DNA of 41,445 bases from an uncultured Ectothiorhodospiraceae bacterium (lineage in GTDB: Bacteria > Pseudomonadota > Gammaproteobacteria > S012-40). This document shows, piece by piece, positions 7,714 to 13,722 of this stretch. The notes beneath the pieces are model-generated. The model did not search any database. It had not been told where the DNA came from and saw only the letters and a list, made by a program, of their open reading frames with translations. Position 1 is the stretch's first letter. Every line of letters starts with the position of its first letter. The DNA lies in the NCBI GenBank assembly GCA_945787715.1, contig CALZJE010000024.1:1-41445 (forward strand), in the 5' to 3' direction. The translations under genes were made by a program, and so were the position numbers.

Positions 7714-8055
7714 ATGAATGAAACGCAACTACTGGAGGCAGTTAAATCTCTTCAGGAATCTCAAAAAAGTATAAAAATTACAATTGGCTCAATAATGGGG
7801 CTAGTCCTAATTATTTTCTTCTTCACATTCGCAATGCTTCTTGATAAAGCGCCTCCACTGTTTTTTATTATTGAGACAATAATTACCATCATTATCATTC
7901 CCCTATTTTTCATGCTGAATAAGCTCTCGTTTGTAATATTGAAAATTCGCAAAGGGAAAAAAGAAGAACTTAAAAAAATTATTGCACAAATGAATGCTAA
8001 TGATGTGGATAAAAAAGCAGAAATAGTTTTACAAAAACTGGAAAATACTTTTTAG
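7714..8055 (+). CDS. Small two-helix membrane protein of unknown function
   Basis: 113 residues. A short charged N-terminus is followed by two membrane helices (about residues 26-44 and 48-72) and a lysine-rich cytoplasmic-looking tail. I do not recognise the family. A longer reading frame starts at 7648 inside yadH, but the ATG at 7714 is preceded by AAGAAAAGAG at a good distance and avoids the overlap, so it is preferred. It is likely co-transcribed with the transporter and could be an accessory subunit; that is inference from position only. Confidence 0.7.
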   Translation: MNETQLLEAVKSLQESQKSIKITIGSIMGLVLIIFFFTFAMLLDKAPPLFFIIETIITIIIIPLFFMLNKLSFVILKIRKGKKEELKKIIAQMNANDVDKKAEIVLQKLENTF

Positions 8056-8124: not shown

Positions 8125-11100
8125 CTACTTATTACCTCGACTTCTCATGGCTTTAGAATGAGTCATGGATTGAATTTTCAATCTACTCATATCCTTTTTC
8201 ACTTTCTTCGCACCAGGTTTGTAGTAACCACCTTGGAAACATTCCATGCAGGTATCATTGATAGCTGCATCCATTCCATGGTTCATCCACATTCCAGTAG
8301 CATCTTCACCATCTACCCAGATATTCATCCAATTTGACGCTGCTAAATTTGGCAGTTCACTATTTGCTTTTAAATTCACATCAAAGCTAAATGTGTAATC
8401 ACCATTTGCATTGCCAGTTGGCGTTAGAGTAATTGGAGATGATCCATAAGAAATATCGTTTGGATCAGTAGAGAAGTTCATCCAGCCATCGGACCCATTG
8501 ATACCTGCACCAACACGTGTAGGATTGAATTGACCAGCAGCCGAACCATCACTTGCTTTACCATAGATAGTACCGGTAATCGTAACCACTCCAGATGGCA
8601 TCGCACTAAGATCATTTGAGACAGCAACGAAACGTGGACGCATGTTTCCATTCATTGTTTGAATTTCAACACTCATATGATTCCAATCAGCATCATTAAT
8701 GTTTATCATATTGAAGCCATCATAAACAGTAACATCAAACTCAAACATTCCATCTACAATATCAAATTTCTGAAATGCGCCATCTGAATGCCATTCACCT
8801 TGGCCATCTTGAGTGCTATCCACAGCAACTTCACCTTTAATGGTTACTGTTGTTGCAGTAGTTTCACCCAGATCATATCGAGGCATAGCCCCTATACAAG
8901 GATCACTTGCCACAGATCCATTAGTTCCAGGTTCAGTCATCATAGGATCACCAGACATTGGAGTTTGTAAAACAGCACCATTATACACTTCAACCGCGAT
9001 TGGAGGTGGAGGTAGTGGGCTACTGCTATTAGCTTCCAAATCTATGTTATACCAGTTTTTACCATCGGCAACGTTAATGTTGTTGAAACCTGGATAAACT
9101 GTTACATCAAGAGACCATGGATACAAACCCGCTACAGCTGCAGTAGCAGAAGTGGTAGGAGTGGTTTTCACTTGACGACCACAGGTCCAGATTTCTGCGC
9201 CAATGGAACGACCAGGAACTGTACTAGTACCACTGATTGTTACAGTATCCGCATCCACTGGAGTAAACTTATCCATCTCGGAAATACCCCAGCGTGATCC
9301 AGACTCAACTACAACGTCTTTGTCAGTCCAAGTATATGAGTCAGTTTTAACAAGTGGAGTATCAGTTGTATCCTTGTGCCCAACTACACTGACAACTTCC
9401 AGTTTTGGTGGTGTATAAACGCAGTCACCAGTATTGATGACTTTCACACCCATCCAATTCCAGTTCTTATCGAAAATATCAACAAAATTTTCAGTTTTAA
9501 CTGTTGTGGAAGAGCTTCCCACCAAAGGTACTGTGACAGAGAACTCTGCTTCGCCTGTAGTTTCGTTCATCACTGCTTCAGTGATAACTTCTTCCCAGAA
9601 GAATTCATTCCAATCAACATTACCATTCCAGTTCGCACGAACTTCACCTTCAGCAGCTGTACCACTAATGGTGATTGAACATTGCGTTGTCATATAGTCT
9701 CCGCCAGTATAAGCAACATCTTCGATGTCAGTTATCTCAGGACGAACCGCTTTTTTACCCGCTGAAGTGAAAATATTCAGGTTGTACCAATTATCATTCA
9801 CATCCTGGATGTTTACATAGTTATCACCATTAAAGAGCTCAAGTGTCAAAGAGAAAGAACCATCAAGTGCAACACTTAACCGATCTGACTCCCAACCACC
9901 ATTACTGTTAAAATCGTAACGAGGCTCACGATCTCCTGATGGGTCATCGTGATACTCGAGTACACCAGTGATTTCTATCACATTGCCAACTACTTCAGAA
10001 GCATCCCAACGACCACCGTCACCCCAGTTTTCTCTTTGAGTTAACGCAGTTGTTGTTGCAACATCTATAACAGTCATTTCTGATATTGCTGGAACGTAAA
10101 CACTTCCTGCCGCAGTTTTTACACCGAAGTTAGAGTTGAAGTTTTGACAATCTTCAGGACCACCCGTACCACCAGCAGAATCATTACAGATGTGGCCATG
10201 AACACCAATCCAGTTCTCGCCGTTGAATACTTCTACCTCAACAGAGAAATCACCGTTTGTATGATTGATTTCAACCTTACGACTAGCTCTTGCTTTTGCT
10301 TTGTCATTCCATACATCAAGACGAAGTTCATTCATCATCATGCAATCAATAGCAACACAATCAACGCTACCCATCACTTTGATAGCTACAGCATCTGCAG
10401 ATTCATAGAATCTCCAACCATCATCAACAAGCACTGTTGGTGTTCCTGCCTCATTAACACTTTCAACACTTGAAAGAGTAATGATAGGCGCTATTCCACC
10501 TGTTGTAATTATTTGAAAATGATCTTCTACGAAGTCGTTGCGATCGTTGTCTTCACAAGCACCATTCACCCAACATGGAATACCATCCATCGCACCAATT
10601 TGATTAACACCTTGGTTCAATTCAATATCTACAGAAGCAACACCGCCTGTAAATACTAGGTCATATTCCATGTGTGTATTACCATCAACAAATAACATGC
10701 CGTTGGTTACACCATCACGTGGAGTTGTAACAGTGATTGTTGCTATTGCTGCATCACCCACATCAAAACCGTGAATCATTTCCGAGAAAGTTATTTGTGT
10801 GCCATCAACTTCCACCATGAAATTAAGCTCTTGGTATTCACCAGCAATCTTAAAGCGATAAAGCTCTGAAATTGCAGTAACATCTTTTGGTAGATCAGTT
10901 TGACGTCCGTCCTGAACATTTTTCACTGTATTAGTGCCCAGTGCTGCTACCTGCCAGTAAAGCTCACTACCATCTCTTGGTTCAAAGCCATCAGTAAAGC
11001 CAAAATCTTCACTTACGTCGGCAATAGTTCCAGCATCCATCAAAATATCTATATCTTTAGGAACATCTAGACTAGTCATTGTTGAAGGAAGAATTAATGC

Positions 11101-13167
11101 AAAACCAGATCGAGAGTTACGAGAATCAACAATGATCCACGCATATGCAGCTGCATCTGCCACTTCTGCCCATTCAAATATTACTGAATTTACATCATCA
11201 ATTAAGAGAGGATCACCACCATTTTCTGGAGAAATCAACTCAAGCAAGTTTGCTTGTACAATATCTTGCCCACGAGTATCGATACCTTCAGAAGCACGCT
11301 TGATGTACCAAGCACCATTGATTTTTTCTAGCGTAGCGAATAAAGATTCATCTGGAGCTGCTTCTTTACATTCTTGACTAGTTTTTTCTGTCGTTGCTGA
11401 TAAAGTAAATTCAAAATCCGCTTCACTACCAACTATATTAATATTATCAACGACGTTACCAGTAATCTCAACACCACAATAATCCCAAAATACAAATGCA
11501 TTCGATATCATCGAACCAAATTCTTGAAGATCTTGCATTCCATCACGATTGATATCACTTTCGTCGAAACCATTCGCGGCGTTATACTCCATAAAAAAGT
11601 CACCAGTCATTAAACTTTGCAACTGAGGTAGGTTACGATCGTTGAACGCTCGAACCCATTTACCAAAAACGTCTTTCACATCTGCTTGCGCTTCTGCAGT
11701 TGCAATTTCTTCTGGTGTTGAATCTGCAGTAATCGCAGTTACACCTTCAGTTGTTGCAACAGTTGAAAATGAAACATTGAGTGCATTCATTTTATTACCG
11801 GCTAGATCCTTACCACCCGACACGCTACCATCATATGTTGTACCGAGCTTAAGTGGCTTACCTAAAACAAACTCATATTCATAGAGGTCATCTTCATTTT
11901 TACCAACAAAAAGGACGCCCGGTTGAGCACCAAGGCTTGGATCCATACTTAGTCGAATACCATTCACATCCATTCGCTCGTTTGATGCAATGCGAATAGG
12001 GGTCGTAATTTCAATTGGAGTAGCAGTCTCAGCCAAAGTAGGGCTTGATAGCTGAGCAGTTGGAGATTGAGTATCTACTACAGCATTTACTGGAACACTA
12101 AATGTGCCTACACCAGTTAATTTCAATGATTTACCAAAGATATTGAATGTTGCCAGATCTTCTCCAGTGAATGAAAAGCCATCAACCAATTTTTCAACCG
12201 TAGTATCTGCGCCATAAACAGTTATTGTGTAGGTATCACCTGTTGACCATGATTCTCCGGCGTTCAGGTAGTATGTTGCTGTCAACCAATCAGCTGAAAG
12301 AGTCCAAGTGCCTGCTGGAATAGCAGAACCATTTGTTGATGCGAAATCTAACTCTAGATCTGTTAGCGCTGCACGATTCATAGCCATACTAAATGCAACC
12401 TGAACTGCGGCATTAGGTGCAAGATCTAAATCTACATCACCCCATGTTTGTGTACCATCTGGATTTTTAGCAACACCTAACATTGACGTAATTTTTGGCT
12501 CTGCAGTACTGGTTTGTGCTACAAGGTCTACACCAGAAATTGAACCTGCGAATTGACTAACAACAGATTGGAGAGCAACAAGATATGGGCGTTTAGTTTT
12601 TGGGTGGATGGTATAAGCCAATAACGTATAATTACCACCAGGAATTAGACCACCGTCTTCATAACCGTTACCATTTTTGTCCGCATTGATTAACGTTTGT
12701 AATGTGTAATTACCTTCTGCATCAGTTGTAGCTTTTGCAACAGGATAAACCCACGATGGACGAGAGGCGTTGTAAAGCTCAACAATACCACTTGAAAAAG
12801 CAGCTCCCGCAGCACGTGAAGGCAATGCTCTTTCTTGAGCTACTTTCATGCTAGTTAGTGCTTTTGCAAATGCTTTATTATAAGCTTGAGAACCGGCCTT
12901 GCCACGCTTAAGCGCATGAGAAACAGCCGCTTTCTGCTGAGCTTTGCCACTAATAATGCTTGATAAAGTTACTTTACCGGCAACTGTCGTCGCAGTTGCA
13001 GCGATACCTGTATCAATTCCGTCTTCGTTTAAAACCCCTGTAGTAGTACCATCACCTTGCCCAACTGCTAGGTTATCGCCTACTACACCGTCACTAGAAC
13101 ATCCTGATAGCACAAGCATGATACTTATCATGCAGGCTATCAGTAGTCTAAACCGATGTTTATTCAT
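8125..13167 (-). CDS. Giant modular lipoprotein (1680 residues) with seven C-terminal beta-sandwich-like repeats
   Basis: Lipobox LVLSGC puts lipidated Cys23 after a standard signal peptide, so the protein is membrane-anchored, probably at the outer membrane. Visible regions in order: a carboxypeptidase-regulatory-like part with calcium-like DKNGNGYEDGG (about 150-215); two Ig-like (Big_5-type) regions (about 220-475); an NTF2/SnoaL-like domain (about 495-630) with an EF-hand-like loop DINRDGMQDLQEF; a fibronectin-like segment (about 635-760); and seven related modules from about 770 to 1640. Each module has a strand like VTVYDGFNMINI followed by an N-W motif; these centre near residues 860, 982, 1119, 1236, 1365, 1490 and 1618. 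The modules resemble glucodextranase domain B. The protein ends in a basic tail after CMEC. RBS AGGAGAGG stands at 7 bases. No catalytic residues recognised; adhesion or surface binding is inference. Confidence 0.85.
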   Translation of the reverse strand: MNKHRFRLLIACMISIMLVLSGCSSDGVVGDNLAVGQGDGTTTGVLNEDGIDTGIAATATTVAGKVTLSSIISGKAQQKAAVSHALKRGKAGSQAYNKAFAKALTSMKVAQERALPSRAAGAAFSSGIVELYNASRPSWVYPVAKATTDAEGNYTLQTLINADKNGNGYEDGGLIPGGNYTLLAYTIHPKTKRPYLVALQSVVSQFAGSISGVDLVAQTSTAEPKITSMLGVAKNPDGTQTWGDVDLDLAPNAAVQVAFSMAMNRAALTDLELDFASTNGSAIPAGTWTLSADWLTATYYLNAGESWSTGDTYTITVYGADTTVEKLVDGFSFTGEDLATFNIFGKSLKLTGVGTFSVPVNAVVDTQSPTAQLSSPTLAETATPIEITTPIRIASNERMDVNGIRLSMDPSLGAQPGVLFVGKNEDDLYEYEFVLGKPLKLGTTYDGSVSGGKDLAGNKMNALNVSFSTVATTEGVTAITADSTPEEIATAEAQADVKDVFGKWVRAFNDRNLPQLQSLMTGDFFMEYNAANGFDESDINRDGMQDLQEFGSMISNAFVFWDYCGVEITGNVVDNINIVGSEADFEFTLSATTEKTSQECKEAAPDESLFATLEKINGAWYIKRASEGIDTRGQDIVQANLLELISPENGGDPLLIDDVNSVIFEWAEVADAAAYAWIIVDSRNSRSGFALILPSTMTSLDVPKDIDILMDAGTIADVSEDFGFTDGFEPRDGSELYWQVAALGTNTVKNVQDGRQTDLPKDVTAISELYRFKIAGEYQELNFMVEVDGTQITFSEMIHGFDVGDAAIATITVTTPRDGVTNGMLFVDGNTHMEYDLVFTGGVASVDIELNQGVNQIGAMDGIPCWVNGACEDNDRNDFVEDHFQIITTGGIAPIITLSSVESVNEAGTPTVLVDDGWRFYESADAVAIKVMGSVDCVAIDCMMMNELRLDVWNDKAKARASRKVEINHTNGDFSVEVEVFNGENWIGVHGHICNDSAGGTGGPEDCQNFNSNFGVKTAAGSVYVPAISEMTVIDVATTTALTQRENWGDGGRWDASEVVGNVIEITGVLEYHDDPSGDREPRYDFNSNGGWESDRLSVALDGSFSLTLELFNGDNYVNIQDVNDNWYNLNIFTSAGKKAVRPEITDIEDVAYTGGDYMTTQCSITISGTAAEGEVRANWNGNVDWNEFFWEEVITEAVMNETTGEAEFSVTVPLVGSSSTTVKTENFVDIFDKNWNWMGVKVINTGDCVYTPPKLEVVSVVGHKDTTDTPLVKTDSYTWTDKDVVVESGSRWGISEMDKFTPVDADTVTISGTSTVPGRSIGAEIWTCGRQVKTTPTTSATAAVAGLYPWSLDVTVYPGFNNINVADGKNWYNIDLEANSSSPLPPPPIAVEVYNGAVLQTPMSGDPMMTEPGTNGSVASDPCIGAMPRYDLGETTATTVTIKGEVAVDSTQDGQGEWHSDGAFQKFDIVDGMFEFDVTVYDGFNMININDADWNHMSVEIQTMNGNMRPRFVAVSNDLSAMPSGVVTITGTIYGKASDGSAAGQFNPTRVGAGINGSDGWMNFSTDPNDISYGSSPITLTPTGNANGDYTFSFDVNLKANSELPNLAASNWMNIWVDGEDATGMWMNHGMDAAINDTCMECFQGGYYKPGAKKVKKDMSRLKIQSMTHSKAMRSRGNK

Positions 13168-13722
13168 TAAAAACCTCTCCTAATTGATGTAAAAATTTGC
13201 GTAGTGAGCTACACCCTTCTGTGCTGTTGAGTAACCTTCGCTAAATCACTCAACATTTGACTCACTATGCGTCGACGACCACCTCTATCTGCTGCTGGTA
13301 ACAACGCCAGATGCAAATAGATGTAGTCTCCGGTGGTATCAACAAGGCGTATCGGTTAGCGAAATCCAAGCTTTAATTTGTTTTAAATAGGAAAATCAAT
13401 GACTTAATTAGGCGGTATTATTTTCGTACAAGATAGAAGGGAATAGACCATTTTTTGGCCATCGAATAGTTTAAATATCATTCATTTAGAATGAAGTGTG
13501 TCTTTCTACACAGTTCTTGTAATTTTGCTTGATGTGAAAAGCATTTTTTTAAAACTGTGAAATACTTTTAGACGTGAGGATGATTTGAAATGTTTTCTAG
13601 CATGAATTATTGAAAATTGAAGGGGCTATTGTTTGTAATTTGCGCATTAAAAATATCGAAAAAAATTGCGCTCAAAAATCACAACGATGCTGAAGTAAAG
13701 TTTACTTTTTCTAAAAGCATAT
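13168..13722. other. 555-base gap between tatD and the lipoprotein gene
   Basis: It holds the ribosome binding site AGGAGAGG (about 13174-13182) and the structured leader (13199-13363). The rest, 13364-13722, is very AT-rich and has only minor inverted repeats such as TTCATTtagAATGAA near 13481-13495. A promoter for the lipoprotein must lie just upstream of 13363, but no strong -35/-10 pair was seen. No gene was found. Confidence 0.6.
13199..13363 (-). promoter_or_regulatory. Structured 5' leader with two hairpins and a pseudoknot, upstream of the giant lipoprotein
   Basis: Read on the minus strand. Hairpin I: ACCACC/GGTGGT (13278-13283 with 13332-13337), then an 8-bp stem (13285-13292 with 13313-13320, one G-U), then CTGG/CCAG. 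Hairpin II: outer stem 13199-13208 with 13261-13270 (one mismatch) and inner stem TGTTGAGT/ACTCAACA (13225-13232 with 13248-13255). The loop of hairpin II holds TTAGCGAA (13237-13244), perfectly complementary to TTCGCTAA at the 5' end (13356-13363). A U5 tract follows hairpin II, 23 bases before the start codon. It does not match the riboswitch consensuses I know. Confidence 0.6.

Follow-up and report, generated by a model that had tools for sequence, protein, structure and literature searches.

A predicted sigma-28 (FliA) promoter and folded 5' leader upstream of a giant lipoprotein gene in an uncultured Ectothiorhodospiraceae bacterium

The region upstream of a giant surface-lipoprotein gene in the window (the whole 41,445-nucleotide stretch of contig CALZJE010000024.1 that was analyzed) is, as read from its sequence, probably a promoter of the FliA (sigma-28) class together with the 5' UTR of its gene, with hairpins that are specific to the lineage. 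The gene, located at 8125-13167 on the minus strand, encoded a protein of 1680 amino acids with the lipobox LSGC and one Big_5 domain, and relatives of this protein were found in 11 of the 13 sampled genomes of the order. The gene order RF3-TatD-lipoprotein was present at the homologous loci L032, L033, L034, L037, and L051, and the order TatD-lipoprotein at L039; no TatD match was found in the available stretches of L035, L036, and L038, and the upstream neighbor was TatD wherever it could be checked. RNA polymerase with a FliA-family sigma factor would bind the promoter and start transcription a few bases downstream of it, the leader of the resulting mRNA would form two stable hairpins, followed by a Shine-Dalgarno sequence that is strong and partly accessible, and the lipoprotein would be made along with the late flagellar and chemotaxis genes. 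The hairpins, if they act at all, would serve as passive 5' structure in mRNA stability and in the spacing of the ribosome site, and their effect on mRNA stability or on translation is probably modest. A promoter with its 5' UTR is ordinary in kind and is a useful regulatory assignment for an uncharacterized giant lipoprotein; this protein is probably made with the motility regulon, which offers an initial clue to the time and place of action of such proteins. The candidate riboswitch proposed in a preliminary description of this DNA was dropped and replaced by this testable promoter assignment.

The predicted sigma-28 promoter and the motility genes

A near-consensus sigma-28/FliA promoter, TAAAGCTT-N11-ACCGATAC, was located on the minus strand at 13375-13349 and had been missing from the preliminary description. 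The -35 element TAAAGCTT (13368-13375) contained the consensus TAAAG exactly, at a position shared with the homologues, the spacer GGATTTCGCTA (13357-13367) had exactly the 11 bases of the consensus, and the -10 element ACCGATAC (13349-13356) contained CCGATA. The sigma-28/FliA consensus is TAAAGTTT-N11-GCCGATAA (PMC2859248), and the same TAAAG -35, 11-base spacer, and CCGATA -10 characterize the class 3 sigma-28/FliA promoters of E. coli aer, tar, and tsr (PMC2859248, PMC4183435). The site scored 11.6, compared with a maximum of 10.6 in 200 dinucleotide shuffles of the 450-nt upstream region (0/200 as good). Among the 31 upstream regions compared within the window it ranked first (the other 30 ORFs reached at most 9.5), and it was the only exact sigma-28 motif match in the 41 kb. 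A sigma-70 promoter for the lipoprotein was rejected because a search of the minus strand between 13100 and 13800 revealed no sigma-70-type site. The transcription start of E. coli aer was mapped 6 bp past the -10 octamer (PMC2859248), and by this analogy we infer that the lipoprotein mRNA starts near 13343.

The promoter was conserved upstream of the orthologous genes. Nine lipoprotein genes of the same family (L032-L039 and L051) were read, the 450 nt upstream of each being compared with 200 dinucleotide shuffles, and in seven of them (L032, L033, L034, L035, L036, L038, and L051) a matching element scored better than every shuffle, although the spacer was 12 bases in L035 and the -10 element of L051 had one mismatch. 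Two homologues count against the assignment to the FliA class: the element of L039 was weaker, with a poor -35 (3/200 shuffles as good), and the sigma-28 motif was absent from the 450-nt upstream region of L037.

As in the E. coli class 3 setting, the genome that carries the window contained FliA, together with flagellin and CheY-like genes preceded by the same motif. The fliA gene lay in the order flhA-flhF-fleN-fliA-cheY, and flagellin domains were found at four loci. The motif occurred 114 bases ahead of a flagellin start, 37 bases ahead of a CheY-like gene, and 34 bases ahead of a gene named PilZ-like from a reading of its sequence, without a family search. This genome therefore held FliA, flagellar genes, and other late genes with the motif, and FliA was present in all 13 sampled genomes of the order; FliA dependence of the lipoprotein gene is the reading that these observations suggest. 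Unlike the E. coli class 3 genes, the giant lipoprotein gene behind the window promoter lay in an RF3-TatD neighborhood, apart from the flagellar clusters, and its predicted 5' UTR was long and structured.

Two FliA-family sigma factors, 61% identical to each other, were encoded in this genome, L072 at 7742-8485 of contig C28 and L073 at 7532-8260 of contig C8. One of them sits in the flagellar cluster, and the second adjoins an HPF/YfiA-like gene and prkA-SpoVR. Of the 13 genomes sampled from the order, all but two, both of them incomplete, had two FliA-family proteins above the family cut-off (11/13). Either of the two sigma factors may be the reader of the window promoter. At L045 in the same genome (C29:27165-27141, minus strand), a predicted lipoprotein with an LASC box was found just downstream of a sigma-28-like element, TAAAGTCC...GCCGATAG, whose spacer was one base short.

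The fold of the leader

The predicted 5' UTR of the lipoprotein mRNA, from the start placed by analogy with aer, covered 13168-13343 on the minus strand (~175 nt). A folded RNA had been proposed for this strand, and the folding energies agreed, with z about -5 to -6 on the minus strand and a weaker z of -2.2 on the plus strand. A 206-nt minus-strand sequence folded at -69.9 kcal/mol (z -5.3, 0/200 shuffles as good), and the 175 nt from the predicted start folded at -61.4 (z -5.75), with both hairpins retained. In the minimum-energy fold, hairpin I (13273-13332) was long and imperfect, and hairpin II (13199-13270) consisted of an outer stem, 13199-13208/13261-13270, around a 13-bp hairpin at 13225-13255 with the loop AGCGA. 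The repeats reported earlier were all located where they had been placed: GCGTAGTGAG/CTCACTATGC at 13199-13208 and 13261-13270 (9/10 paired), TGTTGAGT/ACTCAACA at 13225-13232 and 13248-13255, and the 8-bp complement TTCGCTAA/TTAGCGAA on the minus strand at 13363-13356 and 13244-13237. The Shine-Dalgarno sequence TAGGAGAGG (13174-13182) was about half accessible in the predicted fold; its AGGAGA was present in nine of the ten leaders read and missing in L033 only.

The pseudoknot that had been built on the 8-bp complement found no support. The TTCGCTAA arm was inside the promoter, in the spacer plus the first -10 base (all but its last base in GGATTTCGCTA), and with a start near 13343 it would therefore be left out of the RNA. 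Perfect 8-mer complements in 165 nt of this composition were expected 0.21 times and seen twice, one of the two being the stem of hairpin II, and the TTCGCTAA/TTAGCGAA match is within chance. The loop of hairpin II was only 5 nt in the minimum-energy fold, so part of TTAGCGAA was already paired. The pseudoknot is thus unsupported, since its 5' arm is the conserved sigma-28 promoter spacer, presumably untranscribed, and the match itself does not exceed chance. Read-through from TatD could yield a longer RNA holding the TTCGCTAA arm.

A switch between termination and expression had also been suggested from hairpin II and the U tract that follows it. The tract AAATTTTT was present (13191-13198), but the terminator-like stem ahead of it had just 6 pairs and no competing fold was found by energy folding, a model that leaves out pseudoknots and ligands. 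Hairpins I and II coexisted in one predicted fold, the tract was not preserved in the homologues, and it would be a weak terminator-like site at best. Forced pairing at the Shine-Dalgarno sequence left the fold unchanged, a result in which the constraint itself may have had no effect.

Homologous leaders and alternative explanations

A z near -6 is high for a structure without function, which counts against hairpins that are only passive. The leader might instead be a regulatory RNA particular to the lineage, one that adjusts the translation of the lipoprotein or the half-life of its mRNA (for instance as a target of CsrA/RsmA, of an sRNA that depends on Hfq, or of an RNase), its hairpins functional and unconserved beyond the genus. 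We regard this as a tentative alternative to a passive 5' structure, favored by the strong fold of the window leader and by the long leader, about 108-250 nt, in all homologues having the promoter. The leaders of L034 and L051 also folded moderately better than shuffles (z -2.0 each), and that of L051 contained a perfect 12-bp hairpin; the leaders of L032, L033, L035, L036, and L038, in contrast, folded no better than shuffles.

Compensatory changes gave no further support to such an element. Across genera the promoter was kept, but the leader between the promoter and the Shine-Dalgarno sequence could not be aligned with confidence, and only the leaders of L035 and L036, from one genus, aligned clearly. 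RNAalifold found no pairs and no common structure in six leaders, and gave -2.3 kcal/mol for three. On the structure of the window leader, which was derived from one alignment row, more pairs were counted than in shuffles. In a stricter comparison that row was omitted, and the other leaders were shuffled and realigned in 100 null sets. Against this null, plain pairing was mildly raised (4/100), and the double compensatory changes that had been put forward as the check were ordinary (20 cells, with about 40-43 of the 100 null sets having as many). A conserved core with compensatory changes was not found in the homologous leaders, which were few and distant. The 248-nt leaders of L035 and L036, two species of one genus, had no Rfam match, were hairpin-rich, and could be aligned with each other over ~75 bases close to the ribosome site.

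It is unlikely, on the sequence evidence, that a structured and lineage-specific 5' UTR regulates the FliA-controlled giant lipoprotein after transcription and so joins the motility state to a second signal. We consider it quite unlikely that the leader is what remains of an inserted element or gene, with an accidental fold. A 48-codon open frame, PIRLVDTTGDYIYLHLALLPAAD...HRRV, ran through the leader on the minus strand (13355-13212), and the window leader had 175 nt compared with 108 nt in the close homologue L032, as a remnant might. The frame, however, began downstream of a stop codon that lies within the promoter, with no ATG near its start, and searches of Pfam, plasmids, and the order returned no related protein, for which reason a hidden protein-coding frame was also rejected. 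The leader was single-copy: at E 0.001 it was not found elsewhere in its own genome or in 36 relatives, with the limit raised to E 1 the order yielded just short chance-like pieces, and plasmids, phages, and relatives shared only chance pieces of DNA with it. GTTGAGT/ACTCAAC resemble the R'/R'' boxes of an integron attC site, a reading that was rejected because the two are in the wrong order.

A new riboswitch or pseudoknotted switch, the original proposal, is very improbable. Like the riboswitch leaders of Rfam (c-di-GMP-I/II, cobalamin, THF), the window leader is predicted to fold in the stretch from its promoter to the ribosome site, and it has a short A/U tract ahead of that site. In line with the preliminary description, which saw no fit to these patterns, neither the window leader nor eight homologous loci matched an Rfam family at gathering scores, and with the cut-off relaxed to E 10 the window leader gave only a chance match to mir-4041. 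Unlike those riboswitch leaders, it and its homologues showed no conserved core; its sequence was not kept in the homologous leaders, double compensatory changes did not exceed the null, and the promoter position of the 5' arm, the chance-level 8-bp match, the failure to find the leader again, and the coexistence of the two hairpins all stand against a switch.

For the predicted 5' UTR of the FliA-class gene, the fold was also set against the rest of the window. A scan of the 41 kb in 472 segments of 175 nt, with only 15 shuffles per segment, gave two other places near -5.4 and a clearly lower z only at the convergent-gene gap at 8051. The segment 8051-8225, between the convergent genes, folded very strongly on both strands (z about -8) and is probably a bidirectional terminator.
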